From: a virus
Length of the DNA stretch: 30,752 nucleotides
Strand: one strand, 5' to 3'
Virus record (IMG/VR): IMGVR_UViG_3300027784_000021
Coordinates: 1 to 30,752 of that record
In this document: positions 1,793 to 26,636 of the stretch, one piece after another
Layout: the number at the start of each line of letters is the position of its first letter
Numbering within the stretch: position 1 is the first letter of the stretch
Translations under genes and position numbers: made by a program
The notes under the pieces: model-generated
The model's database searches: none
Told to the model about the DNA's origin: nothing
What the model saw: only the letters and a program-made list of their open reading frames with translations

Positions 1793-4312
1793 GTGGCTAT
1801 TAAGATAAGTACAAAAGAAGAATTGCTTAAAATCGGCGTTGATGAAGAATATCCATTGGATGCGGATTATGAACTGGAAAATGACATAGACCTTGAAGGC
1901 GAGAATATAGAGCCGATTGGGGGATTTGAAGAAGAACGACCTGATCCAGAAGAAGATGGACTTCAAGGAACTTTTGATGGTAATGGTTATAAAATTTACA
2001 ATGGCAAATTAGAACATCCAGAAGAATCTGGTGTCGGATTATTCTCATATATTGGCAAGAATGGTAAAGTTAAAAACTTAGGTGTAGATGGTGTAGATGT
2101 GGAAGTAGAAGGAGAAATGCCTGTAGGCGGTTTAGCTGGAGCTAACTTTGGAGACATCCAAAATAGTTACGCAACGGGAGATGTAACAGGAAATAGTAGG
2201 CCTGTAGGCGGTTTAGCTGGTGGTAACTTTGGAGACATCCAAAATAGTTACGCAACGGGAGATGTAACAGGAAATAGTAGGTATGTAGGCGGTTTAGTTG
2301 GACGTAACAGAAGTGATGCCAAAATATACAATAGTTATGCTACAGGAGATGTAGAAGGAGAAGAAGAAGTAGGAGGTTTAGCTGGATATAATTCAGGAGA
2401 AATCCAAAATACCTATGCAATAGGAAATGTAACAGGAGAAGAACAATTAGGCGGTTTAGTTGGATATAATTCAGGAGAAATCCAAAATAGCTACTGGGAC
2501 ACTGAAACATCAGGAATTGAAGAAGGAATCGGCGAAGATGAAGGCACAACCGAAAATGTAGAAGGCAAAACTACTGTTGAAATGACGGTAATAGATACTT
2601 ATAGTAATTGGGATATAGCAAAATTGGATGATTTGGAGGATGAAATCTGGAAAATTAAAGATAAATATGATTATCCGAGACTATCTTGGGAGGATTATGA
2701 TGCTCCAGAAGAGCCATTGGGTTTTAAACCTATAAATGATTATGATGATTTAAAAAAAATTGGTGTTGAAGAAGATTACCCGCTTGATGGGGGCTATTAT
2801 CTTACTCAAGATATAGATTGCGCTGGGGAAGACCCCTTCCCCGGCATAGGTATGATAGATGATCCAGTCAATCCTAACCCTGATTTGATGTTTACTGGAA
2901 CTTTTGACGGACAAGGAAATACTATTAAAAACCTAACTATGAATAACATGGATAATCCTGATAACTCATTTTGTAATTTTATAGTAAATGCAGGCGCAGT
3001 AAAGGACTTGAATTTTGAAAATATTGATTTTACGGGTTTTTTTCACGTTGGGGCTTTTGTAAATACTGGTAATATTGAGAACTGTCATGTATTGTCTGGA
3101 CAAGTAAAAGGTGAGATTTTAGAGGGTTCGGATATGTCCCCTGAAGTTGGGGGCTTTGCGAGTGCGGTGGTGACTATGGGGGAGGTTACCGCTAAGGTGG
3201 AGAATTGTACTACATACGCTGAAGTAATTTCTGATGAATATGCTGGTGGTTTTGTTTATGTTGTGAATGAAGGGGCGGAAATAAATAATTGTCAAGCTCA
3301 TGGTAATGTTGAATCTGGTGATAGAGGGGCGGGGTTTGTAGTATTTCTAAATGAATCGTGTTCTATTAATTATTGTCAAGCCCATGGAGATGTACAGGGT
3401 GGCGACCTTTCTGCGGGTTTTGTGATGGATGTGGATGGAATAGTTGATAATAGTTTTTCTACTGGAAATGTTGTTGCTGATTCTCATAGGTTGGCTGGAT
3501 TTGCAGTTGATGTAAGAGGTCGCGGGGAAGTTAATAATTGCTATTCTACAGGAGATGTAGAATCTATAGATGAGGAAGCAACTACTTATTATGTTGCTGG
3601 ATTTGTTCGATTTATAGCCGATGGAGGATTAGTAAAAAACTGCTATTCTACCGGGAAACCTACTTCTCCAGATTCGAATGGTTTATATGGTTTTGTTGGA
3701 ATAAACCATGGTACGGTTGAAAACTGTTTTTGGGATATGGATACTTCTGAAGTAGATTCTTCTGATGCGGGTGAAGGCAAAACCACTGATGAAATGAAAC
3801 AACAATCCACTTACTCCGAATGGGATATAGCTAAAAAAGAAGATCATACTGATGAGATATGGTATATTGAACAAGATAAAGATTATCCTCGCTTATACTG
3901 GGAGTTAAAAGAAGAAGAGGAAGATAAAGAAGATCCATACGAACTTGTAGTAACTCATACTCCTGGAGAAAGGATTAACGATCATCTTGACATGGAACGT
4001 CATATTTACCATAGATTAGAAAATGTACCTAAAGAACTTAGGGATGAAGCTGATTTTATACTAGTACAGAAAGAACCTGAAGATCCGCAAGCAGAACCGC
4101 CTGCGGAATATGATGTGGTAAAACAGCCTGAAGATTTTAATTTTGTTACGGTGTATAGTCCCCATAGATTTGCAGGCTATTTCCCTGGGCATGTTATATT
4201 ATATGTTAGTGCCCATAGGACGGCTACGCGGTATGAAGTTTTGGGGCATAGTGGTATGTTACAGATGGGGGATGATGTGCCTGCGGGGATTGCTACTAAG
4301 GAAGAAGTATAA
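1793..4312 (+). CDS. GLUG-repeat beta-helix protein, probable fibre or adhesin, 839 aa
   Basis: GTG at 1793 follows GAGGTGG. Residues about 1-100 open a first block (STKEELLKIG, then FDGNGYKI). Residues about 109-236 carry GLUG repeats of the form GGLAGxNxGxIQNSYATGDVTG, typical of right-handed beta-helix surface proteins. A second block begins near residue 309 with the same opening pattern (YDDLKKIGVEEDYPLD, then FDGQGNTI) and has more divergent repeats, including CYSTGDV. Each block ends in a YPRLxWE motif. Residues about 716-839 form a separate module shared with the N-terminus of the next gene. GLUG proteins are usually extracellular; in a phage structural cluster a receptor-binding or fibre role is the best inference. 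The repeat region favours A-ending codons (gga, aca, gta) more than the capsid genes, which suggests acquisition. No signal peptide is seen. Confidence 0.8.
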   Translation: MAIKISTKEELLKIGVDEEYPLDADYELENDIDLEGENIEPIGGFEEERPDPEEDGLQGTFDGNGYKIYNGKLEHPEESGVGLFSYIGKNGKVKNLGVDGVDVEVEGEMPVGGLAGANFGDIQNSYATGDVTGNSRPVGGLAGGNFGDIQNSYATGDVTGNSRYVGGLVGRNRSDAKIYNSYATGDVEGEEEVGGLAGYNSGEIQNTYAIGNVTGEEQLGGLVGYNSGEIQNSYWDTETSGIEEGIGEDEGTTENVEGKTTVEMTVIDTYSNWDIAKLDDLEDEIWKIKDKYDYPRLSWEDYDAPEEPLGFKPINDYDDLKKIGVEEDYPLDGGYYLTQDIDCAGEDPFPGIGMIDDPVNPNPDLMFTGTFDGQGNTIKNLTMNNMDNPDNSFCNFIVNAGAVKDLNFENIDFTGFFHVGAFVNTGNIENCHVLSGQVKGEILEGSDMSPEVGGFASAVVTMGEVTAKVENCTTYAEVISDEYAGGFVYVVNEGAEINNCQAHGNVESGDRGAGFVVFLNESCSINYCQAHGDVQGGDLSAGFVMDVDGIVDNSFSTGNVVADSHRLAGFAVDVRGRGEVNNCYSTGDVESIDEEATTYYVAGFVRFIADGGLVKNCYSTGKPTSPDSNGLYGFVGINHGTVENCFWDMDTSEVDSSDAGEGKTTDEMKQQSTYSEWDIAKKEDHTDEIWYIEQDKDYPRLYWELKEEEEDKEDPYELVVTHTPGERINDHLDMERHIYHRLENVPKELRDEADFILVQKEPEDPQAEPPAEYDVVKQPEDFNFVTVYSPHRFAGYFPGHVILYVSAHRTATRYEVLGHSGMLQMGDDVPAGIATKEEV
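2120..2281 (+). repeat. two tandem 81-bp GLUG repeats, nearly identical
   Basis: The units at 2120-2200 and 2201-2281 differ at two adjacent codons only (two base changes by eye). Each encodes one 27-residue GLUG repeat. A third, more diverged unit begins at 2282. The near identity at silent positions indicates recent duplication or gene conversion, and the array can change length without breaking the frame. Confidence 0.9.
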
Positions 4313-8534: not shown

Positions 8535-8624
8535 ATGCGCAGTTTGATTTTAAGGAGGTATTTACTTGGGAGTTTTGCGAGATTTCTGGGAAGGGACGAT
8601 ATTAAGGCGCAGGGTAGAAGTTGA
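8535..8624 (+). CDS. possible 29-aa leader ORF overlapping the portal start
   Basis: ATG at 8535 lies about 9 bases after GAAGGGTGTT (8518-8526), which resembles the ribosome sites used elsewhere in the window. It encodes a short basic peptide (MRSLILRRYLLGSFARFLGR and nine more residues) and ends at 8622-8624, inside the portal gene in another frame. The portal's own AAGGAGG lies inside this ORF, so translating it could open or block the portal start. It may be chance; there is no similarity evidence. Confidence 0.2.
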   Translation: MRSLILRRYLLGSFARFLGRDDIKAQGRS

Positions 8625-10281
8625 AACAACGAATGATTCGTCCATGTTGAACGAAAGTTTTATGGAACTTTTGGAATCGTTTGTTGATTCATCTATAGGT
8701 TCCCGTCACCATTTTTGGAATTCGATTCAGAAGTTATATGACATATCAGATGACCGGCAGAATCGTTATAATGAATTTCGTTCAATGGAAAAGGACGTTT
8801 TAATGTCGTCAGCCCTGGAACTCTATGCGGATGATGCTACGCAGGTTGATCCCCAGAAGGGTAAGCGTGTTTGGGTAGAACCTGAAGGCGGGAAATACAA
8901 AAATTTAGTTAAGGATCTTAATAACTTTTTAGATGCGATAGATGCGGATGATAAAGTTTGGGGCTGGGGCTATAATTTGGCTTTGTACGGCGATTATTAT
9001 TTGCGTTTTTATTCGGATGAAGAAGATGACGAAAGCCTAAACATATTGCAGGAAGCAATAAAGCTTTCAGCAGGGGTGGCTAGTGGTGACGGTGACGAAG
9101 AAGTAAAAAGTAGCAGGCTCTTAGAAGATCAAGAATGGGAAGTTTATGATAATGGGGATGAAGGCCAAGATGAAGAAGCTGAAGAAGATGACGGGGCTTC
9201 GATGTTCCCCTACGTGGAAGAAATAGACGAACCTGAAAGTGTTTTTGATTTGACTTATCGTGGGAAAACTGTTGCTTATGCGATAATTGACAAGGATGAA
9301 GCTGACCAGAAAGGCGTGTTTGCCAATGAACGGAAGGTGCAGGTTTTACCGCCTACGGCTGTAGTTCACTTTTATATAACCAAGGCACAAAAATTTGATC
9401 GGATAAAGTTAACGTTAAGCGGGTCTGGTAATAAAAAGATAGACGGTAAAGAAACGGAATTTCGGGTGGCCCGTGGTTCTTCGCTTTTTGACAATATTCG
9501 TTCTACTTATCGGATATTGAATAGCATGGAAAATTCGATGTTGTTATCCCGTATAGTTAGATCCGCTTTTGTTAGGGTGTTAAACGTTGAAGTTGGGCGT
9601 TACCGTGGTCGCAAGGTGACTGATATGGTGCGTAAGGTCAAGCGCCTGTTTTCATTTTCTGAACAGATGGATATGCAGGATGATAGTGGTTCGGGTGCAT
9701 ATTCTACCTTGCGTTCACCTGCCCCGTTGGGCGAACCGATTGTAATGCCCACACGCGATGGGGTGGGGCAAATTCGGCAGGAAACAATTGGGGATGATTA
9801 CAATGTTAAAGACATTGTTGACATCGAATACTTTCGCAACAAATTGTTTGCGGGCTTGAAGATCCCCAAGGCGTTTTTGGGCTGGGAAGAAAAAATACCC
9901 GGTAGTCGTGGGGAAAACCTTATGACATCCTTGGATATTCGGTATAGCCGTACGGTTCAACGTATTACGACTGCGTTGCGGAATGGTATAAGGGATTTGT
10001 GTAACATATATCTCATTTATAAAGGCCACGATGAAGCGGTGAACCAATTTCGGGTTTGCATGGTGTCGCCGACCACGGCTGAAGATCGGGAACGCTATCA
10101 GCATATTGATAAGCGGTTGGGCGTTGCTAGTAACGTGGCTAGGCTCTTGGTGAATGACATGCGTGATCTTGATGTGGATCAAAGGGAACTTGCTAAGTAT
10201 CTTTTGGAAGAATATATGGATATTACGGACGATGATTTGTTGAAACGGCTCATGCCTGAACCTGAAGAAGAAGGGCAATAG
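8566..10281 (+). CDS. portal protein, T4 gp20-like, 571 aa
   Basis: TTG at 8566 follows TAAGGAGG. The portal is a dodecameric ring at one head vertex that nucleates prohead assembly and serves as the DNA channel and motor dock. T4-type portal signatures are clear: an N-terminal helical region (RYNEFRSMEKDVLMSSALEL), and in the C-terminal half TLRSPAPLGEPIVMPTRDGV and DIEYFRNKLFAGLKIPKAFL followed by the RGENLMTSLDIRYSR segment. T4 gp20 is 524 aa; the extra length here lies mainly in a very acidic insertion near residues 145-225 (EEAEEDDGASMFPYVEEIDE). It heads the head module: portal, unknown gene, protease-scaffold, capsid protein. Confidence 0.95.
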   Translation: MGVLRDFWEGTILRRRVEVETTNDSSMLNESFMELLESFVDSSIGSRHHFWNSIQKLYDISDDRQNRYNEFRSMEKDVLMSSALELYADDATQVDPQKGKRVWVEPEGGKYKNLVKDLNNFLDAIDADDKVWGWGYNLALYGDYYLRFYSDEEDDESLNILQEAIKLSAGVASGDGDEEVKSSRLLEDQEWEVYDNGDEGQDEEAEEDDGASMFPYVEEIDEPESVFDLTYRGKTVAYAIIDKDEADQKGVFANERKVQVLPPTAVVHFYITKAQKFDRIKLTLSGSGNKKIDGKETEFRVARGSSLFDNIRSTYRILNSMENSMLLSRIVRSAFVRVLNVEVGRYRGRKVTDMVRKVKRLFSFSEQMDMQDDSGSGAYSTLRSPAPLGEPIVMPTRDGVGQIRQETIGDDYNVKDIVDIEYFRNKLFAGLKIPKAFLGWEEKIPGSRGENLMTSLDIRYSRTVQRITTALRNGIRDLCNIYLIYKGHDEAVNQFRVCMVSPTTAEDRERYQHIDKRLGVASNVARLLVNDMRDLDVDQRELAKYLLEEYMDITDDDLLKRLMPEPEEEGQ

Positions 10282-10326: not shown

Positions 10327-10815
10327 TTGGATATTTCAAGAGTGGTTGTTTTGGAAGCCCTATATAGTGCCAAAGGGCGGGCAGCAAGTTGGGGCAAAGA
10401 AGAAGAAAAGCGGGAAATTGAACGTTTGATTCAAGAAACGATCCAGGCGGAAGGTATACCAGATTCGGTTAAGGCGAGTAAGTATTATCGGACATTGAAA
10501 CCTATTCGGGAACGTTTTGGTGACGAGTTGCGTTCAAAGGCAATTTATAGTACATTTAAGAATATAGCAGAAACTGCTGAATATACAGAAGTTGAAGTTG
10601 CGAAGGCGTTCAGTTCCCTAGTAACCCATGCGTTGATTGAGCATGAAATAACTGGGGAGCCGTTGAACGTGATATATCAGGAATTGCGCTTGAATGACAC
10701 TATGTATGCGTTGAATGAAATGTTTGCGGGTAGGGGTATACCGCAGAAAACAATTGTCGAAACGATGGCGCATTTATTCCCAGACCTGTTATCAGGCGGG
10801 GCAAACGAGGGTTGA
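10327..10815 (+). CDS. unknown head-module protein, 162 aa
   Basis: TTG codons at 10321 and 10327 are both in frame; the ribosome site AAAGGGGGG ends near 10318, so the second TTG (MDISRVVV) has the usual spacing and is preferred. The protein is mainly helical with mixed charge (KEEEKREIERLIQETIQAEG, then KYYRTLKPIRERFGDEL) and has no recognised motif. It lies between the portal and the protease-scaffold, where T4 carries small core or scaffold genes (67 and 68). A prohead core or assembly role is therefore reasonable but unproven. Confidence 0.65.
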   Translation: MDISRVVVLEALYSAKGRAASWGKEEEKREIERLIQETIQAEGIPDSVKASKYYRTLKPIRERFGDELRSKAIYSTFKNIAETAEYTEVEVAKAFSSLVTHALIEHEITGEPLNVIYQELRLNDTMYALNEMFAGRGIPQKTIVETMAHLFPDLLSGGANEG

Positions 10816-10851
10816 GGACATTGTTAGTGCCCTCTGTAGGAGGTGCTTTGG

Positions 10852-12636
10852 TTGAGTAAATTGATATTAAAAGATTATGTGCTTCCCGTAGACCAGGGGA
10901 TGATTAGAGAAGCAAGTAGTCCCCCGAAGAAGCGGGATGTGGTTTTGTGTTCATTTGATATGCCGTTGGCTGATTTTACTAATTACACGCGTAACGAACG
11001 TTTTTATAGCGGTAATTTGTGGAAGAATTGTTTTGAATCGGATGTAGTTCAGGAAATGCTACATACGAATACATTTTTTGGCGAAGCAGACCATCCATTA
11101 GAGCAGGATCGCTTGGAAACGTATATGCCTTATGTTTCTCATGCGGTGCGTAACCCACGTATTGACGAATCCCGAGGTTTGGTTTATGGCACCATTGATG
11201 TCTTGGACACGCCAAGGGGTAGGATAGTCAAGACTTTTATTGACTATGGATCTCAATTAGGGGCATCTTCACGTGGTGCTGGGGAAGTGGAGCAAGACGG
11301 TCGGGTGTGTGAAAGTGATTATGTTTTAGTGGGTTTTGATTTAGTTTGCATACCGAGTAACGTGGCTGCCCGTGCCCCTGCGCATCCTGCACAAGGAATT
11401 GCTGCTCCGCCATCATTTGAAGAAGCTATGGGGCTTTATATATCCCAGATGCAGGAACAGGGCAACATTAATCAGTTGCGGGAAATGCGTAAGATTATAG
11501 AATATGCTGGCGCTTCCCAAAACGATTCCCTTGTTCGCAGGTTAGATGAAAGCATAGCCAACTTGAACAAGGGTTGCCCAAGTCGTTGTGGCGGACATGG
11601 ACATGACCATGGTAGTGGGCGTAAGGTGATTGCTTCGGGTACTAACCTTACAGGTGGAAGCCAGGCACACAAGGATCTTGAAGAAGCTTTGGGTTATGTG
11701 CAGAAGCTGAAGAAGGAAAACGCTGAATTGCGTTTGCAGTTAAGCCAGAAGATTGGTTCAGCCAATTCTTTATTGGAAACCAAAAGTAGCAGGGACTATG
11801 GAAAACAGGGTAAGAAGGCCGACAAAGGCCAAGTAATGAATGAAAGGGTACTTCGGGAACTTAAAGATTTACAGGCTGAACTGGATGAATCGCTATACAG
11901 GGAAGAAGAATTGCAGGTTTCTTGTGAAAACCTTGAATTGTATTGTAGCGATATGGAAGCTTATGCGGAATCCTTAGAAGAACGTATCCGTTCTGAACAG
12001 CAAGAGATTTCAAAATTGAATAAAAAACTAAAGGATTTACAGGGGGTGGTAGAACAGTATGAACAGGAACTCCAAGTAAGTGACGCTGACAGTAAGCGTC
12101 TTAAAGAGGCAAACCGCAAGGTTAAAAGCCTAGAAGCGGAATGTCGGGATTTACGGGAGCAGCTTGCCGAGGAACGGCAGCGTTACGAAGAAGCTCACGA
12201 TTACTATGAATCTGCTTTGGATGCACTATCGTCCAAGGTGGCAGGTGGCGATGAATTACGAGAGGTTTATGAAACAAAAATTTCCCAAGCCCATGATCAG
12301 TTAGATGACATGGCACGCTATGCCAATGACTTGATTGGTTTTTGGGCGAGGGAACTAGGCGTTAGCCCTGACGCTATTCGAGGGCGGTTGCCGGAAAATT
12401 ACACGTATGCTGATTTAAACCAAGTTGTAGAAGCCTTGAAGGATTACAATGTTCGCAAGGAGAAGCTACCTTTTGCACTACCAAAAGGGGCTGGAAGGGA
12501 CTTCATGTTCCCCAAGCGGAAGCGGGGAGAATCCTTCAATGCTAACGGTGGCAATACGGATGCCAAGGAAGAAACAGACTATGAATTTCTAAACGAAGTT
12601 TTGCAGCACCAGACTGGCAGCCATGAAGCCAAGTAA
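10852..12636 (+). CDS. prohead protease fused to scaffold-like coiled coil, 594 aa
   Basis: The in-frame GTG at 10843 overlaps the ribosome site TAGGAGGT, so TTG at 10852 is the likely start. Residues about 1-190 match T4 gp21-type serine proteases: FFGEADHP gives the catalytic His81, and LGASSRGAG gives the nucleophile Ser (139 or 140). Residues 242-253 form a Cys/His cluster (CPSRCGGHGHDH). Residues about 275-520 are long charged heptad-like helices, as expected of an assembly scaffold. T4 encodes protease (gp21) and scaffold (gp22) separately; here they are one frame, so the protease would be built into the core and could release itself after assembly. It lies directly before its probable substrate, the capsid protein. 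Confidence 0.9.
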   Translation: MSKLILKDYVLPVDQGMIREASSPPKKRDVVLCSFDMPLADFTNYTRNERFYSGNLWKNCFESDVVQEMLHTNTFFGEADHPLEQDRLETYMPYVSHAVRNPRIDESRGLVYGTIDVLDTPRGRIVKTFIDYGSQLGASSRGAGEVEQDGRVCESDYVLVGFDLVCIPSNVAARAPAHPAQGIAAPPSFEEAMGLYISQMQEQGNINQLREMRKIIEYAGASQNDSLVRRLDESIANLNKGCPSRCGGHGHDHGSGRKVIASGTNLTGGSQAHKDLEEALGYVQKLKKENAELRLQLSQKIGSANSLLETKSSRDYGKQGKKADKGQVMNERVLRELKDLQAELDESLYREEELQVSCENLELYCSDMEAYAESLEERIRSEQQEISKLNKKLKDLQGVVEQYEQELQVSDADSKRLKEANRKVKSLEAECRDLREQLAEERQRYEEAHDYYESALDALSSKVAGGDELREVYETKISQAHDQLDDMARYANDLIGFWARELGVSPDAIRGRLPENYTYADLNQVVEALKDYNVRKEKLPFALPKGAGRDFMFPKRKRGESFNANGGNTDAKEETDYEFLNEVLQHQTGSHEAK

Positions 12637-12691
12637 TTTGTAACTGTGTTGAATGCTTAAAATGTAAATTTATTATAGGAGGTTGATTATC

Positions 12692-14128
12692 GTGGATAAG
12701 AACGCTGTCGTTTTTAACAATCCCCAGGCGTTGTTACAAGAAGAAATGAATCTTCTTGGGCAAAACAAGCCTGTGGTGAATAAGTGGGCGAAGCATATTG
12801 AAGCGGTGGAACGTGCTTGGGGGGGCAAGATGCCCTTAGACCGGCGTGTGGTGTTGGCCACAGCATTGGAGAATACCCAGCAGAAGTTGGCAGATGCGGG
12901 TTCTCTTTATGAAACTGCTGTGCAGCCGAGTGACGTTGGGCCGTTCAAGAAGTTTGCAATTGAACTTTTGACTGCCCTTGTGCCGAGCATGATTGTCCCT
13001 GATATAGTCACGGTGCAGCCGATGACAAATCGTATCGGGGAAGTCCGGTATATTGAATATATGTATGCGTCTGATAAAGGGCGCACTAAGGCGGGGACAC
13101 CTTTTGGTTCGCCGTTTAACAAGCCGGAATCTGATATTTGGTATTCCAGCGAATATGTTGAAGAAGAATTCATTGCTGAAGCTGGGAAAACCGAATATTC
13201 GGGTAATTTGGACTGGCTACCGATAAGGCCTGGAACTGTTGAAATAATGGTTGACGGTTACAAGGTCGTTGATAATGGTAACGGCAAATTGCAAGGTGAA
13301 CCCTTGGCTGGTGACGGGGAAATCAATTACGGTTCTGGTCAGTTTGATTTTGAGCTATCTGCTGAAGCAGATGAGGACATCTTTGCCAATTATGAATATA
13401 ATAACGAAGATGTGCCTGCACAGTCGCCGAAGGTGAAGTTCCGGTTAAAAACTTCTCCTGTTTCTGCCAGGACACGTAAGATTAACACGTCTTTCTCTTT
13501 TGACGCAGCTATTGATATGCAGCGTGATTATGGTGGAGAAATAAATGCCATGTTGGTATCCCAGATGGCTGCGGAAATCAAGCACGAAATTGATGGGGAG
13601 ATCATGGCAGACTTGCGTAAGATTGCAAGTGCTACTGAGCAGCCTATTGTTTTCGATGCTGCTGTGCCCCAGGCTATCAACATGCGGGATCACTATGATA
13701 CTTTCCTGCAAACGGTAATCCGTGCAGGGAACGCTATCTTTAACAAGACCCGCAGGGCAAGCCTGAACTTCTTGATTGGCGGTACCAATGTTGCGAACAT
13801 TGTGGAATACAACCGGCAGTTTGTTCGTGCAGACGGTACTGGTTTTGGTGCAGACCCCGTAGGGCCGCATCTCAGTGGTTTCCTTAATGGAATCCCCTTC
13901 TACAAGAACCCCTTCTATGACCCGAATCACTGGGTCGGTGGTTATAAGGGTCGGGGGCTTTTTGATGCTGGCTACGCTTACCTGCCTCATTATCCTGTCA
14001 TGGCATCCCAGTTGATCATGACGGAAGAATTCGAGGCGAAGCGGGGTTACGCTACCAGTTACGGCAAGAAGAATCTTAATAGCGACTTGTATGTTAAGGG
14101 CGAAATCAAGAACTTTGACGGTAGCTAA
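12692..14128 (+). CDS. major capsid protein, T4 gp23-like, 478 aa
   Basis: TTG at 12683 touches the ribosome site (TATAGGAGG), so GTG at 12692 is the start. HK97-fold capsid signatures of the T4 type are present: VGPFKKFAIELLTALVPSMI followed by VTVQPMT aligns with the T4 region ending GVQPM, and the N-terminal ~74 residues look like a removable assembly arm. LYE (72-74) fits the T4 protease rule (Leu/Ile-X-Glu), so the mature protein may begin at Thr75. Residues about 180-246 carry an extra beta domain (GTVEIMVDGYKVVDNGNG, then GDGEINYGSGQFDFEL). C-terminal segments include RRASLNFLIGGTNVANIVEY. It follows the protease-scaffold, as in T4. Confidence 0.93.
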   Translation: MDKNAVVFNNPQALLQEEMNLLGQNKPVVNKWAKHIEAVERAWGGKMPLDRRVVLATALENTQQKLADAGSLYETAVQPSDVGPFKKFAIELLTALVPSMIVPDIVTVQPMTNRIGEVRYIEYMYASDKGRTKAGTPFGSPFNKPESDIWYSSEYVEEEFIAEAGKTEYSGNLDWLPIRPGTVEIMVDGYKVVDNGNGKLQGEPLAGDGEINYGSGQFDFELSAEADEDIFANYEYNNEDVPAQSPKVKFRLKTSPVSARTRKINTSFSFDAAIDMQRDYGGEINAMLVSQMAAEIKHEIDGEIMADLRKIASATEQPIVFDAAVPQAINMRDHYDTFLQTVIRAGNAIFNKTRRASLNFLIGGTNVANIVEYNRQFVRADGTGFGADPVGPHLSGFLNGIPFYKNPFYDPNHWVGGYKGRGLFDAGYAYLPHYPVMASQLIMTEEFEAKRGYATSYGKKNLNSDLYVKGEIKNFDGS

Positions 14129-14815: not shown

Positions 14816-15748
14816 GTGAAAGAGCTTGATCGCATAGTCAAAGAACTGGAAGCTGGGGAAGAAAAAGCCTTTGTGTTGCCAGAAGCAACAAGGGCTATTT
14901 CGGTATCGGTAACTGGTGATTACGGTGTTTACCTGCGAGTGGATGGGGAAGGCGCTGTAATTGGTGGCGATGATACGCATTTTGTGCCCCCAGAAGGTTC
15001 TTTGGACTTTGAAAACTGGCCTGAAGAAATTAGCATGGTATCCGAAGGTGTTACGACTGTTGAAGTGGTGGCTTATGGTTTGCCTGCTACAGATAAGGCT
15101 AGGAAGCGGATCAAGCATGATTTAGGTAGCCCCCCATTGGAGTTGGCGATAAAGAACATTGATGAAGTTATACATCGGGCTTTTGAAGAATTGCAACCAG
15201 ACATTTTAGAGTATCGTTATGTGACGTTGCCTTTTAGCAATGTCATAGATATGTCTGATTATAAGCCCGATCTGGTTATTGACGTTTATAGGACGCAGAT
15301 GGCTGGTGCAGGGGTAGACTTATATGACCCGTTTTACATTCCGTTGTTTACGGGCTTTCATCCGCCTGACGGTAGCTTGGAAGATATGATGTATTTCCTG
15401 CTTCGTCAGCAGATTTTGCATACGCTAAAAGATCGGTTGTCTTACCGCTTAGTAGGAGATCACTTATACATTGATCTGTCGCCCCCGAAGCCGAATTACG
15501 TTACTGTTGTTTATTCGCCACGTTTGGATAGTTTTGAAGATTTACAGGATAAGGAATGGGTCAGGCTAGTTTTTCGTCTGGCGCTGGCTTATACGAAGCA
15601 GATTGAAGGGCGGATTAGAAGCAAGTTCCGGGTGCAGAATTCGCCTGTGGAATTGGATGGTAGTGATTTGCGAAGCGAGGGTCAGGATGAAGAACAAAAG
15701 GTTAGGGAAGATGTGGAAGATATGATTTACACATTTTTCCCAGAATAA
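14816..15748 (+). CDS. probable head-tail connector/neck protein, 310 aa
   Basis: GTG at 14816 follows CTGGGGGTG, 16 bases after the previous stop. Residues about 1-90 are a beta-rich domain. From about 100 to the end the pattern resembles a family common in large T4-related phages: a YVTVVYSPRL strand, then LVFRLALAYTKQIEGRIRSK and NSPVELDGSDLRSEG leading into a Glu-rich C-terminal helix. Such proteins sit among the neck and connector genes. The gene's place between capsid and tail-terminator genes agrees. The family link is from memory of the sequence pattern; the precise neck role (T4 gp13- or gp14-like) is not established here. Confidence 0.65.
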   Translation: MKELDRIVKELEAGEEKAFVLPEATRAISVSVTGDYGVYLRVDGEGAVIGGDDTHFVPPEGSLDFENWPEEISMVSEGVTTVEVVAYGLPATDKARKRIKHDLGSPPLELAIKNIDEVIHRAFEELQPDILEYRYVTLPFSNVIDMSDYKPDLVIDVYRTQMAGAGVDLYDPFYIPLFTGFHPPDGSLEDMMYFLLRQQILHTLKDRLSYRLVGDHLYIDLSPPKPNYVTVVYSPRLDSFEDLQDKEWVRLVFRLALAYTKQIEGRIRSKFRVQNSPVELDGSDLRSEGQDEEQKVREDVEDMIYTFFPE

Positions 15749-15771
15749 TTTGTTAAGGAGGTTTGTTTGTT

Positions 15772-17175
15772 ATGAGTGAACAGGAACGGTTAATATTGCA
15801 AGAACTGTATGACCAAAACAACAGCAAGACGGGTGGGCAAAACCAAGGCATACAAAAAGAAGGAACTGCCAATGTGTACCAAGATACGCAGTATCAGGGG
15901 GTTCCTGAAATACCTGGAGCATCTACTGTAGGGGGATATGTTTATCGCTGTCCTTCTGGGGTTGAAGTAACCATGGTTCACGAACTTGGTGCGGGCGAAA
16001 CCATTAAAGATCCTGCTACTGGGGAAGATGTAGTGCCTGCTTTTGTTCGCAGGGAAGGTGAAGATCCCGCAGGCCCGTCTGCCAGGACTTATAATGATGC
16101 CCAGCAGGACACTTATGATGTGCCTGGTAGCGGTAAGATTGATGAATTGGTGGACGAAGCCCAAAGGCTATTCACATCGTTTTTGTCTGAAGCTGGTGCT
16201 GACGTAAAGGCACTTGACCGGGAAATCGATCACAACATTAATGTTGCGAACATTGAAGCCTGTTTGGGGATTGAAACCGAATCCAACATCCAAGCGCAGG
16301 AACTGGGTAAACGGCTAAGTGAAGGTTTGGGTTGCCGTGTGGTGATACCCGAGCCGGAAATGCGCAAGGATGAAGGGCTTTGCGTGTTTAACGTTATCAT
16401 CGGTAGCAACCGTGGTGTGAATGAAAGCCTGGGGCTTTCAAGAGAATCAAAGACTACTAGGAGGGGTAGAAATATGAAGGATAGAACGCTTCGTCAATCT
16501 CGCAGTTTGGGCAGGGAATCCCTGTTGGAATCCAGGGGTGGTCGTAGGCCTGGTCGTAGTTCCCGTGGCAGGAGTGACCGTGGCTATGGTGAAAGTGCCC
16601 GTTTTGGAGCAAGGGGTCGTTATGGTCGTGGGCATTTCCGTTTTGGGGAAAGCCGTTCGCGCAGGCCTGATCGGGGCGAACCTGCCAGAAGCGAAAGTCG
16701 GCGGAGTGAAAGCCGTAATCCAGCCCCAGCCCCTCGCAGTCGGCGTGGTTTTGAACGCACTACTGAACGTAGTAGAGTAGGTTCCAGCATGGAAAGTCGG
16801 CGTAGCCGGAGGCCGATGGGCGAAACTCGCCGTCCAGAACGTTCAAGCATGAGTTTGGGCAGAGGGCATAGGGGTACACGGCCTACTCCCTCAGTCGCCA
16901 GGGAACGTAGTTCCATGACCCGTGATAGTGGCATTGGACGTTCACCACGTGGTGCTGGGTATACTCCCCGTAGCCGTGATCGTTATGAAGGCAGTCGCTT
17001 TGAAAGCAGAACTCCTACACGTGCAGGCGTAAGACGGCATAGCCGGATGGGTCGGCGTGAAGGACTGGGCGTGCCTGGTCGTGACCGTGAACGGGGTTGC
17101 CAGTTATCCATGAAGGATCTGGGCTTGGGTGAATCCCGTAGCTATGGTCGTAGCCGTAGTCGCTATCGCAGGTAA
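15772..17175 (+). CDS. two-part protein with Arg/Ser/Gly-rich disordered C-terminus, 467 aa
   Basis: ATG at 15772 follows TTAAGGAGG. Residues about 1-225 form an ordinary, mostly acidic N-terminal part (VYRCPSGVEVTMVHELGAGE; ACLGIETESNIQAQELGKRL; LCVFNVIIGSNRGVNES). From about residue 226 the composition changes abruptly to Arg, Ser and Gly with almost no Lys, in RS, RGR and ESR motifs, resembling eukaryotic RS/RGG domains or protamines. This tail is surely disordered and very basic, so nucleic-acid binding, DNA compaction or condensate formation are possible roles. An internal in-frame start with a perfect ribosome site separates the two parts. The gene lies in the neck region and ends just before a strong terminator. 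I do not recognise the family. Confidence 0.8.
   Translation: MSEQERLILQELYDQNNSKTGGQNQGIQKEGTANVYQDTQYQGVPEIPGASTVGGYVYRCPSGVEVTMVHELGAGETIKDPATGEDVVPAFVRREGEDPAGPSARTYNDAQQDTYDVPGSGKIDELVDEAQRLFTSFLSEAGADVKALDREIDHNINVANIEACLGIETESNIQAQELGKRLSEGLGCRVVIPEPEMRKDEGLCVFNVIIGSNRGVNESLGLSRESKTTRRGRNMKDRTLRQSRSLGRESLLESRGGRRPGRSSRGRSDRGYGESARFGARGRYGRGHFRFGESRSRRPDRGEPARSESRRSESRNPAPAPRSRRGFERTTERSRVGSSMESRRSRRPMGETRRPERSSMSLGRGHRGTRPTPSVARERSSMTRDSGIGRSPRGAGYTPRSRDRYEGSRFESRTPTRAGVRRHSRMGRREGLGVPGRDRERGCQLSMKDLGLGESRSYGRSRSRYRR
16474..17175 (+). CDS. nested in-frame product: RS/RGG-rich basic protein, 233 aa
   Basis: ATG at 16474 is in frame with the long gene and is preceded, 7 bases away, by AGGAGGGG (16459-16466), as good a ribosome site as any in the window. 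The product starts MKDRTLRQSRSLGRES and ends with a similar motif (MKDLGLGESRSYGRSRSRYRR, shown with the C-terminal end). By hand count 65 of 233 residues are Arg, with only two Lys. ESR occurs seven times. So the gene may yield a full-length protein plus this short form, as with lambda C/Nu3. It may also be a fusion of two once-separate genes that kept its second ribosome site. Confidence 0.6.
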   Translation: MKDRTLRQSRSLGRESLLESRGGRRPGRSSRGRSDRGYGESARFGARGRYGRGHFRFGESRSRRPDRGEPARSESRRSESRNPAPAPRSRRGFERTTERSRVGSSMESRRSRRPMGETRRPERSSMSLGRGHRGTRPTPSVARERSSMTRDSGIGRSPRGAGYTPRSRDRYEGSRFESRTPTRAGVRRHSRMGRREGLGVPGRDRERGCQLSMKDLGLGESRSYGRSRSRYRR

Positions 17176-17197: not shown

Positions 17198-17248
17198 ACG
17201 GGGCAGGGTTTTTTCTTACACTCCTTCTGTCCCTGCCCCGTTTTTGTT
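17198..17248 (+). terminator. strong intrinsic terminator after the RS-rich gene
   Basis: ACGGGGCAGGG (17198-17208) pairs perfectly over 11 bases with CCCTGCCCCGT (17231-17241), followed by TTTTTGTT. The 22-base loop is itself T/C rich. It is the clearest terminator in the window. The next gene's AGGAGG begins only about 7 bases later, which leaves no room for a promoter between them. Confidence 0.85.
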
Positions 17249-17268
17249 ATATATAGGAGGGCTTGCCT

Positions 17269-17955
17269 GTGTTACGGAACTTGCAGATGTTGTGTGAAGC
17301 CACGAAGGACGAACTAAAAACTCGAATTAGCCGTGATCATCCAGAACGATGGGAACGCAGGCGTAATTACGAAATTGATGAATATAAGGGTATAAACAAA
17401 CCGGAATTGCGGGCAGGCAACCTGGAAGCGTATTTTGCCGTACAGGGCAGAAGGCTTTATTCGGTTACTTTGCGTTTTGAGGGTTTTGTGCCGATAGTCC
17501 AGTATTTTCTAAATCACATAGATGATGAATTGTACGAAGTTGTAGACGCTGCCATATCTTATGTTGCTGATAGCCATGACACGCATGTTTATTGTAGCTG
17601 CCCAGATTTCCGTTATCGTTTTCGTTATTTAGCGACTGTTGACGGGTATAATGCAGGCCCGTCTGAAAATCGTTTTCCCGAAATTCGTAATCCAGGACTT
17701 GAGGGCGCAGCGTGCAAGCACGTGGCCAAGGTTTTGAGCAAGACGCATCGTTGGAAACGTAGGCTTGCCAAGTTTGTAAGAAAAGCCCTTGTGGAAGATG
17801 GTTTGGTTGACGTTGAAACTGTGAGAACCGTGGAAGATGAACAGGGTGTTGTGGAGCAGCGACCTGAAAAGCAGCCAGAACCAGGTGGCGATAGGGATCA
17901 GCGACTGAAGTATTTACAAAGGCGATTTGCAGAAATTGCTGAAGAAGGGGAATAA
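17269..17955 (+). CDS. SWIM-type zinc-finger virion-cluster protein, 228 aa
   Basis: TTG at 17263 is too close to the AGGAGG at 17255-17260; GTG at 17269 has correct spacing. The key motif is CSCPDF (Cys109, Cys111) with ACKHV (Cys149, His151), the CxC...CxH pattern of SWIM zinc fingers, which bind zinc and often nucleic acid or proteins. Between them lies a conserved-looking RYRFRYLATVDGYN segment. The first 100 residues are basic and may form a beta domain (YFAVQGRRLYSVTLRFEGF); the C-terminus is charged and helical. Proteins with this layout occur in structural clusters of other large phages, but their role is not known. A head-tail connector or DNA-contacting role is inference. Confidence 0.75.
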   Translation: MLRNLQMLCEATKDELKTRISRDHPERWERRRNYEIDEYKGINKPELRAGNLEAYFAVQGRRLYSVTLRFEGFVPIVQYFLNHIDDELYEVVDAAISYVADSHDTHVYCSCPDFRYRFRYLATVDGYNAGPSENRFPEIRNPGLEGAACKHVAKVLSKTHRWKRRLAKFVRKALVEDGLVDVETVRTVEDEQGVVEQRPEKQPEPGGDRDQRLKYLQRRFAEIAEEGE

Positions 17956-23741: not shown

Positions 23742-26636
23742 TTGCCGCAACGTTATGAACGCCAAATGCAACAAACAATGAGGCGACAAACTCTTGATAG
23801 GGCGTTTCCAGAACAGCAGCAACGTCATGGGGATCGCCAGCAGGGTCGTGGTGTTCGTCAGGAAATGCGGGAAGCTCGCGAATACCATGAACAGATGAAT
23901 AGGGTTCGCAGGGACGCTTATCAACAAGCTTCAAGGGATTATCAATCTTTTTCAAATGATATAGCCCAGCAGACTAAGGAAACGCTTTCTACCCATGAAA
24001 GTGCTTACAAGGAAAAGATTGGGCATGTAGAACAGTATGCCCAAAAAGCTTCTAAGCAACATAAGAAGGCATCCAAGCAAGGGCAGTTAAGTGTCAAGGA
24101 CTTGGAAGGTGCCTTCACTTCAGCCATGGAAAAAATGACTAACGTGGGTATGGAAAGTATTAGGGCTACTGCTAGGGAATTTAATGTTTCCTTGGATACG
24201 ATGTCTGACAGGCTGCGTGCTGTTGACCTTCAGTTAATGGAAACAAGTGAACAGTTTGGTCGCCTTTTTACTAGAAGCGAACGTATGGATATACAGTATG
24301 AAGTTATGCAGCTTGGGGCTAGGAGCCAGGAACAGGTAGAACAGTTGTCCCAAACCTTGATGCGTTTGCGTTCCTTATACCCAGAAATGGGGCTAGCACA
24401 GGAAGAATGGCTTGCTAGTATGGCCTTGGTGGAAGATCAGGCGGTTCCTGCTGTGGAATCTGTGTTGGAAAGCATGACTGCTGCTGCCGAAAAGGGTATG
24501 TTTTTTACTGATGAACGTGTCTTTGAATCGTTAAGAAGGCAGTCTGAACGTGTTATGAGGCAGGCACACATGGGCGTTGCAGACTTGGAGGAAGGTTTGC
24601 AGGATGTTGTGGCTACAACGGCTGCTCTAGAAGATCAGTTTGTGGGCTTTGGTGATACGGCGGGGACGATTATGGAAGATTTTCATAGGGTATCCCAAGA
24701 ACCAATAACTGAACTTACCAAGGATACTGAACTGTTAATGCGTATGACCCAGCTTTATGGGCATGATCTCAAAAGCTTGTTTGTTGGCCTGGAAGAAGGC
24801 CATATATCCCAAGCAGAAGCGATGGAAATGTCTATAGATCAGCTTGGCAATGCGTTGGAACAGATGCAAGAAGCTGATCCGATACTGAGTAGGGAGTTAC
24901 CAGCGTTGTTTGGCCTTCCCCAGGAAGTGCTTCGTTTGGATATAGATGATTTAGACCCCGAAGAATTTGCCCAGCAGGTGGAAATGATGGTTGATCCGTC
25001 CAAGGATCTGATCGACTTCATGGAAGAATCGGGTTATGTGGCTTCGTTTGAACATCTTGTGCGGACTGGCGATCATACGGAAGCCCTGGTGTTAGCCCAG
25101 CATGAAACAAAAACGTGGATTGAAAGTGTTTTTGGGGAATTGAGTTCAATAAAAGGTATTACGCAAAGAATTTCAGCTTCTAATATGCTGCAGAACAAAC
25201 AGCTTGGGGGTATACAGACGACCATGGCTGCGCAGACGGGGGCGGGCATGGCTGCGCAGACGGGGGCGGGTGCTAAAGGCTTCTTAAAAGGTGCTGGCAG
25301 GGTGGCTCCATGGCTTGTTGGGGCTATTGGCGTGCAGCAAGCCATAGCAGGATATACAGGTGCAGGAGAAGATGAAATAGCGGGTGTTGAAGCTGCCAGA
25401 GAAGGATTGCCTTGGGGTACTGCTTTGGCAGGTGGTAAATTAGGGGCCAAAGGCGGTGCGGCGTTGGGTACTGCAATAGCTCCTGGGTTGGGTACTTTAA
25501 TTGGTGGGGCTATTGGTGGCCTTGGTGGTGGACTAGCGGGATTTTTTGGTGGCGAAGCCTTGATAGATCCTGCTGCAGATTGGGTTGGTAGACTTATGGG
25601 TGGTGAAGCCTATCAGGAAGAAGTTCCAGCTTACCAGCATGGTACACCTTATGTTCCAGAAGATCAGTTTGCCTTTTTGCATCGTGGGGAAGCTGTATTG
25701 TCCCCCGATGAAGCAGAAAGGTATAGGAACGTGGATGATGATGGTCGGGAACAGGTGCATCGGCTTTTAATTAGGGAGATGCGAATACAGCGCTTGCGTG
25801 TTGAACGCATGGATCTCCCCAGGGACGATATGGCAGGGCCAGGAACGTATGGCTTGCGTGCAAGGCAAACGGAAGGTATTCCTGGCTTTTTTAGCAATGT
25901 GTGGGATAGTATTTCGGGCTTCTTTTCCAATATTTTTGGTTTGGGTGGTATGCGTGGCGATGGTCGTGCATCGGGCGTTGGTATGTATAAAGGTGCCCAA
26001 GAGTGGGTAGATAGATTTCCCTTAACGTCCCCGTTTGGGTCACGCACTATTACGGTAGATGGGCAAACTTACAATGATTTTCATAATGGCATAGATTTAG
26101 GTATGCCAGAAGGAACGCCTATTCCTGCTTTGGGCGGTGGTGTGGTTAGCGATGCGGGACGTGATAGCACTAGGGGTAAATACCTATACCAGAAGTTGCC
26201 TTCGGGTAAGGAGCTTGCTTATTATCATTTAAGCAGTATAGCAGCAAGGGCAGGCCAGGCGGTTAGGCCAGGGCAAAAAATCGCAGCTTCTGGGAATACT
26301 GGACGTTCTACAGGCCCGCATTTACACCTTGGGGTCAGAGCATCATCTGGGGAGTGGATTGATCCAGAAAGTTGGTTGCAGTCTGGCGACATGGCTGCGG
26401 GGGCTAATTTGGGGCCTGTTCCCACGGCTGTTTATAATGCGACCCCGACTATCCAGTACAATGAAGGTGATAGGGATTTCGATACTACGCCAATTGTGAA
26501 TGCACTAAACAGTAATTCAATGCAGATTATTGACCTGTTAAGGGCTATACTATATAAGCTAGGTGACGGTGATCGGGAACGTATTAGGCGTGCCTTGGAA
26601 TGGGATGAAGATGAATTACGGGCAGCAGGATATTAA
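23742..26636 (+). CDS. tail tape measure protein with M23 peptidase domain, 964 aa
   Basis: TTG at 23742 follows a weak GGGTGG. The N-terminal half is long, Gln/Glu-rich helix and coiled coil, typical of tape measures that set tail length. Residues about 565-605 are a Gly/Ala-rich hydrophobic stretch (LGTLIGGAIGGLGGGLAGFF) likely to insert into membrane. Residues about 755-890 are an M23 (LytM-type) endopeptidase: FHNGIDLG gives His781 and Asp785, and GPHLHLGV gives His860 and His862. This zinc enzyme cuts peptide cross-links in peptidoglycan and would act locally during DNA entry. At about 1.5 angstrom per helical residue the length suggests a tail near 100-145 nm, an estimate only. Confidence 0.9.
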   Translation: MPQRYERQMQQTMRRQTLDRAFPEQQQRHGDRQQGRGVRQEMREAREYHEQMNRVRRDAYQQASRDYQSFSNDIAQQTKETLSTHESAYKEKIGHVEQYAQKASKQHKKASKQGQLSVKDLEGAFTSAMEKMTNVGMESIRATAREFNVSLDTMSDRLRAVDLQLMETSEQFGRLFTRSERMDIQYEVMQLGARSQEQVEQLSQTLMRLRSLYPEMGLAQEEWLASMALVEDQAVPAVESVLESMTAAAEKGMFFTDERVFESLRRQSERVMRQAHMGVADLEEGLQDVVATTAALEDQFVGFGDTAGTIMEDFHRVSQEPITELTKDTELLMRMTQLYGHDLKSLFVGLEEGHISQAEAMEMSIDQLGNALEQMQEADPILSRELPALFGLPQEVLRLDIDDLDPEEFAQQVEMMVDPSKDLIDFMEESGYVASFEHLVRTGDHTEALVLAQHETKTWIESVFGELSSIKGITQRISASNMLQNKQLGGIQTTMAAQTGAGMAAQTGAGAKGFLKGAGRVAPWLVGAIGVQQAIAGYTGAGEDEIAGVEAAREGLPWGTALAGGKLGAKGGAALGTAIAPGLGTLIGGAIGGLGGGLAGFFGGEALIDPAADWVGRLMGGEAYQEEVPAYQHGTPYVPEDQFAFLHRGEAVLSPDEAERYRNVDDDGREQVHRLLIREMRIQRLRVERMDLPRDDMAGPGTYGLRARQTEGIPGFFSNVWDSISGFFSNIFGLGGMRGDGRASGVGMYKGAQEWVDRFPLTSPFGSRTITVDGQTYNDFHNGIDLGMPEGTPIPALGGGVVSDAGRDSTRGKYLYQKLPSGKELAYYHLSSIAARAGQAVRPGQKIAASGNTGRSTGPHLHLGVRASSGEWIDPESWLQSGDMAAGANLGPVPTAVYNATPTIQYNEGDRDFDTTPIVNALNSNSMQIIDLLRAILYKLGDGDRERIRRALEWDEDELRAAGY
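25223..25270 (+). repeat. perfect 24-bp tandem repeat in the tape measure gene
   Basis: Two identical 24-base units (25223-25246 and 25247-25270) encode MAAQTGAG twice, just before the Gly-rich membrane-like segment. The repeat is in frame and local GC is higher than its surroundings. It looks like recent slippage. Confidence 0.9.

Follow-up and report, generated by a model that had tools for sequence, protein, structure and literature searches.

A gene in the head cluster of a T4-type phage encodes a 467-residue protein whose first half is acidic and whose second half is rich in Arg and Ser. Judging from its sequence and by analogy with T4, we consider it probable that this product is a prohead core protein that works like T4 gp68 and is cut at maturation by the S77-family protease of the same phage. 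In T4-type phages, the prohead core is a transient protein structure on which the capsid shell is built. The DNA analysed here (the window) is the whole 30.7-kb stretch of an IMG/VR virus record (30,752 nucleotides), and it carries T4-type head and tail genes for portal, protease, capsid, neck, sheath, tube and baseplate proteins. The gene lies among the head genes, in agreement with a preliminary description that had called it a phage protein of the virion gene cluster, and a role in the head interior appears to be the best reading of its product. The features discussed are listed in Table 1; a slash within a motif marks the bond that would be cut.

Table 1. Features in and around the gene (window positions)
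Feature	Position	Strand	Basis
Portal protein (Portal_T4)	8566..10281	+	
Prohead protease, Peptidase_S77 (T4 gp21 family), with coiled-coil scaffold-like C-terminal part	10843..12636	+	Pfam; PHROG head maturation protease
Major capsid protein, gp23-like, expected propeptide site LYE77/T	12683..14128	+	
Neck (gp13-like) protein, upstream of the slot	14816..15748	+	HMM built without the window: 3.6e-47
Shine-Dalgarno sequence AAGGAGGT of the gene	15755..15762	+	
Gene under study, 467 aa, acidic then basic, candidate prohead core protein	15772..17175	+	Open ORF; Shine-Dalgarno sequence; ortholog L104:1478-2611
Half conserved with L104, 48% identity over 173 aa, includes GYVYxxPSGxE...AGETIKDPxTG..VVP	15913..16431	+	
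Small folded alpha/beta domain (predicted), helix-strand-strand-helix-strand-strand	16129..16404	+	AF2 model
Candidate prohead-protease site V216-N-E218/S219 at acid/base junction	16417..16428	+	Phi-x-E at junction; INE/T in L104
Tract of 249 aa rich in Arg, Ser and Gly; net charge +46 (69 R, 3 K)	16426..17172	+	
AGGAGG before in-frame ATG 16474, candidate internal start that would yield the tract alone	16459..16464	+	Shine-Dalgarno match
Terminator-like hairpin and T run, directly 3' of the gene	17198..17245	+	Read from sequence
SWIM-like zinc-finger protein, downstream of the slot	17263..17955	+	HMM built without the window: 5.5e-28

An acidic half joined to an Arg-rich tract

Inspection of the ORF showed that the frame is open from a TTG at 15763 to the stop codon ending at 17175, and the best start was the ATG at 15772, which is preceded by AAGGAGGT. 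Residues 1-218 are acidic (pI 4.4); in them an unstructured part is followed by a small alpha/beta domain and then by the protease-like VNE/S junction. Residues 219-467 form the C-terminal half, a tract with a pI of about 12 that contains 27.7% Arg, 16.1% Ser, 14.1% Gly and 1.2% Lys. RS and SR steps are frequent (16 and 19, respectively). The proportion R/(R+K) was 69/72 in the tract compared with 537/968 across the other ORFs of the window (Fisher P = 1e-13). The disorder and charge prediction proposed in the preliminary description classed the strongly positive tract as disordered according to the charge-hydropathy boundary.

That description had concerned 16441-17175, a real Arg-rich stretch that covers only the C-terminal half of one longer ORF. 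Its counts of 233 residues, 65 Arg and 2 Lys are exact when taken from an internal Met at 16474, and its phrase "almost only" Arg, Ser, Gly, Glu and Pro is slightly strong for residues that make up 72% of the 233. The recurrence of RS steps was borne out, while the RGG-like motifs came down to one RGG. The label of a eukaryote-like RS/RGG domain was not upheld, given that single RGG, the lack of a Pfam family match and the few aromatics (11 in 249 residues). Direct searches gave no useful matches for the whole protein in IMG/VR, and nothing useful for its halves in the phage collection or among PDB sequences.

One ortholog was found by a scan with an alignment of the SWIM-like gene, in the record IMGVR_UViG_3300000557_000007 (L104); a rescan for additional orthologs found none. 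It is a 377-aa ORF directly upstream of a SWIM-like gene, and no neck gene lies directly upstream of it. It shares 46% identity with the first half of the window protein (1e-45), its acid/base junction reads INE/T, and its C-terminal RS/RE tract of 145 aa contains 37% Arg and 4 Lys. The Arg codons of the two tracts differ (chi-square, about 4e-7): CGT 30, AGG 12, CGG 11, AGA 8 and CGC 8 in the window, and AGA 30, AGG 12 and CGT 12 in L104. Because the L104 tract stays Arg-rich with changed codons, Arg richness is maintained at the protein level, and retention of the tract by selection on the protein is supported by this one ortholog. A simple DNA repeat was rejected as the origin of the tract: its only tandem match spans 19 bp, and its direct repeats are few, short and degenerate. 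The Ser codons are biased to AGY (26 of 40), so dispersed similarity at the DNA level is present to some extent. The earlier argument from mixed Arg codons for protein-level selection and against a simple repeat held. Likewise, the proposed search for homologs in which the region is missing or broken found it present, intact and diverged in L104, and wider relatives have a Lys/Arg block.

The tract could also be a loosely constrained low-complexity tail with no role of its own. Its length and order are very different in the two proteins (249 aa versus 145 aa), and an ES pattern described below is not common to both. Against this, composition, charge and position are kept despite the codon change, and the same gene slot holds the most basic ORF at nearly all loci; we give such a tail hardly any credence.

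A separate product from the ATG at 16474 is possible. The L104 tract likewise contains an in-frame ATG with an AGGAGG 12 nt upstream of it, a spacing poorer than that of the window. The protein, perhaps as a separate product from this start, might thus be an intracellular one that binds nucleic acid or forms condensates, with RNA as its target or a part in host takeover, and T4 gene 21 provides a precedent for internal initiation. The disordered, Arg-rich composition would suit such a protein. The AGG AGG, however, also reads as two Arg codons, and a 6-nt Shine-Dalgarno match precedes 16 of the 574 internal in-frame start codons of the window. The RNA binding and condensates suggested in the preliminary description left no sign, as neither an RNA-binding domain nor a Pfam match was found in the protein, and the single RGG and scarce aromatics point the same way. 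We regard an intracellular function as very unlikely.

The gene slot in related phages

The protease call rests on a Pfam score of 29.2 bits against a cut-off of 27. The closest capsid proteins were those of Listeria phage LIS04 and Bacillus phage SP-15, at about 50%, followed by that of Streptococcus phage GXN1 at 37%. Searches of GTDB genome contigs with the protease and the major capsid protein revealed no relative. The capsid gene is intact in the window and broken into pieces in six related loci (L007, L026, L027, L030, L053 and L054); the SP-15 annotation joins the pieces and records an endonuclease within the gene. Elsewhere in the window, an ORF of 839 aa at 1793-4312 has four repeats of the GLUG motif (Pfam 2e-32) and is a candidate surface or fibre protein, and positions 23742-26636 encode a tape-measure-like protein in which a metallo-endopeptidase domain lies close to the C-terminus.

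We compared the gene order with that of relatives and found that a neck gene, a slot gene and a SWIM-like gene follow one another in SP-15, LIS04, L002, L017, L027, L029, L035 and L070. The window gene occupies the same position between neck and SWIM-like genes and matches the SP-15-type slot family in this respect. In L004, L016, L038 and L042 the slot was identified from the neck side only. The slot protein of SP-15, LIS04 and eleven other relatives is acidic with a Lys/Arg basic block, and no such block was present in the slot proteins of L003, GXN1 and L012. Among the 14 loci with a basic block, the window and L056 included, the slot ORF was the most basic ORF in 13 and ranked third in L035. 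SP15_037 of SP-15, LIS04_64 and PHROG 1053 (function not assigned) share with the window protein the slot, an acidic part, a basic block and an alpha/beta domain for which the same fold is predicted. Their block is a Lys/Arg mixture of about 55 aa placed before the alpha/beta domain, whereas the tract of the window follows the domain. The basic block of PHROG 1053 had no match in the window, and PHROG 1053 was sought and not found in T4, SPO1, phage G, P-SSM7, S-PM2, RaK2, phiM12, phiYS40, RM378 and others.

Several variants of the slot were observed. In L105, an Arg-rich acid/base protein (positions 97-981; 25 R in 100 aa) lies two genes upstream of the SWIM-like gene, and a separate 139-aa zinc-ribbon-like gene lies between them, an arrangement that resembles a split slot protein. 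In L004, the basic block is a 123-aa gene of its own (10558-10929; PHROG 1053 match) directly upstream of the slot gene, whose 376-aa product has its own basic block too. Basic-block proteins of more distant T4-type phages, near the T4 67/68 position, were seen between portal and protease in L068 (5581-6330) and L093 (3854-4594), and Maribacter phage Colly_1 likewise has one between these two genes. High-Arg ORFs of L060 and L062 were discarded, as they look like wrong-frame ORFs in GC-rich DNA.

The AF2 model of the alpha/beta domain had a mean pLDDT of 80 (3-sequence alignment). The C-terminal domain of SP15_037, predicted without the window sequence, showed the same order of elements (pLDDT 82). 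A Foldseek search matched an SP-15 protein of 338 aa, which is also the length of SP15_037, with a TM score of 0.54 and an E value of 0.057 (rank 28 of 930), a match that is not fully independent because the alignment behind the model contained the SP-15 sequence. None of the solved structures matched the domain well. Comparison of a window and L104 profile with an SP-15, LIS04 and L002 profile gave an E value of 0.0016 in the same register; the single window domain against the relatives' profiles was not significant and became suggestive only once L104 was added. On these predicted folds and profiles, the two domains are probably homologous, with a changed domain order. A zinc-ribbon-like stretch containing two pairs of Cys also occurs in the slot proteins of many relatives (L002, L009, L016, L017, L027 and L029). 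A similar GYVY..P segment has one Cys in the window and none in L104, and the zinc-ribbon-like stretch may have been lost there.

The slot position could also suit a neck or head-tail connector protein whose long disordered basic tail touches DNA at the portal, since the gene has a gp13-like neck gene on one side and, on the other, a SWIM-like gene whose product has a tail-type PHROG match (its Pfam SWIM score is under the cut-off). The charge split, the protease-like junctions and the resemblance of the relatives' proteins to gp68 fit a core protein better, and basic-block proteins of other T4-type phages sit between portal and protease. We consider a connector quite unlikely.

Candidate protease sites and a proposed gp68-like role

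The T4 protease gp21 cleaves after L/I-x-E (PMC9026906), and the SPN3US protease gp245 cleaves after A-x-E with Ser preferred next (PMC10052503). Most capsid proteins of this phage group that cover the region have Phi-x-E followed by Ala, Ser, Thr or Gly at the expected propeptide site. In the window portal protein, LNE/S and LLE/S occur near residues 30 and 37 (8566-8690) and are possible propeptide sites. Near the N-terminus, a Phi-x-E with Ser, Ala, Gly or Thr next was present in 20 of 22 slot proteins compared with 325 of 986 other ORFs, an enrichment whose P value is overstated because the slot proteins are related. The L104 protein begins MSKEMKILE/TIE/S; the N-terminus of the window protein lacks such a site and offers LQE/L only. 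ES dipeptides numbered 11 in the window tract against 3.1 expected, and the basic blocks from 12 relatives together had 24 against 8.2, an enrichment not seen in other ORFs (control ratio 1.07). The L104 tract has 1 ES against 2.6 expected and is enriched in ER instead, which weakened repeated E/S cleavage as a conserved feature. Because L104 lacks the ES pattern, the junction motif carries the case for cleavage, and internal cuts are only possible.

According to its T4 record, gp68 has an acidic N-terminal half and a strongly basic C-terminal half, and PHROGs labels it (PHROG 1049) as a head scaffolding protein. The window has the corresponding setting, namely a T4-type head cluster with a gp20-type portal, a gp21-type protease and a gp23-type capsid protein, together with acidic and basic halves of pI 4.4 and 12.0. 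gp68 also has an L-N-E motif at its acid/base junction, like the VNE/S of the window protein. The basic block of SP-15, LIS04 and L002 aligned with gp68 (hhalign E 7.8e-4, non-basic positions included), and 7 of 300 composition-preserving gp68 shuffles matched or beat the real gp68. In the same model, the window protein gave no match (-0.8 bits). Because the window protein itself has no gp68 match and 7 of 300 shuffles were as good, our claim is that it works like gp68, rather than that it belongs to the gp68 family. The two proteins also differ in other respects: gp68 has 141 aa, contains Lys and Arg mixed and does not match the window protein directly in sequence, and T4 gene 68 lies between 67 and 21, whereas the window gene follows the neck gene. 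T4 gp68 is present at about 240 copies in the prohead core (PMC9958956; table in PMC9026906) and is degraded by gp21 (PMC9958956); the two papers disagree on whether it is essential.

In the model that we propose, the window protein would correspond to T4 gp68 and to the basic-block proteins that SP-15, LIS04 and relatives encode at the same gene position, and the basic block of this gp68-like core protein would have become RS-rich. The acidic half with its alpha/beta domain may anchor the protein in the core and offset the positive charge of the other half, and the Arg/Ser-rich half may stick to acidic parts of the scaffold like an electrostatic glue. As the head matures, cleavage by the S77 protease would occur after the Glu of VNE/S, possibly also at further E/S sites, and would free the Arg-rich part, which would probably mostly leave the head as T4 core peptides do, although some may stay with the DNA.

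Possible fates of the Arg-rich part and known systems

Alternatively, the protein may be a protamine-like internal head protein whose cleaved Arg-rich part stays in the mature capsid on DNA and is perhaps ejected together with the DNA, like the internal proteins of T4. The preference for Arg over Lys (69 to 3) and the Ser richness are as in viral DNA-condensing proteins, among them ascovirus P64, which condenses DNA via its basic C-terminal domain (PMC6163548). The internal proteins (IPs) of T4 are basic and bind DNA at low salt (PMC9026906), and the DNA of the relative SP-15 has extra negative charge (PMC5977210); the DNA of the window phage is not known to be modified. On the other side, mature heads of T4 were found to lack gp68, which is degraded, and the window protein has no clear N-terminal targeting or cleavage site. 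Moreover, with T4-like copy numbers and a genome size assumed from relatives (150-220 kb), 240-360 copies would neutralise about 3-6% of phosphates. To condense the genome fully in the manner of a protamine, thousands of copies would be required. We consider a protamine-like head protein unlikely, if plausible. In its boldest form, the part freed at VNE/S, perhaps as smaller peptides, would stay in the capsid as a tailed-phage equivalent of protamine, derived from a former core protein, and would neutralise or order the packaged DNA; the tract has a protamine-type composition (Arg/Ser-rich, almost Lys-free, disordered), and we hold this version to be doubtful.

The gp68-like core protein remains our preferred reading. 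T4-type head core proteins are among the least understood pieces of phage assembly, and the SP-15-type slot proteins have so far been annotated as "hypothetical". The slot, the acid/base architecture and the protease-type junctions together give this neglected family a testable function. In one branch, a Lys/Arg block has apparently given way to an RS-rich tract with hardly any Lys, a change reminiscent of how protamines evolved, and it raises the question of whether some phages keep Arg-rich peptides on packaged DNA.

Among known systems, T4 IPI-IPIII are basic, are incorporated in the core at about 360 copies (about 300 each in PMC9026906) and are cut by gp21; unlike them, the window protein has no clear targeting peptide of 10-20 residues ending in Phi-x-E/[SAGT]. 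Ascovirus P64 and other viral protamine-like proteins are large and cationic with a basic C-terminal half (PMC6163548). They come from viruses of eukaryotes, and their likeness to the window protein is one of composition only. By analogy, the closest phage parallel is a T4-type core protein, and the compositional parallel is found in the viral protamine-like proteins.
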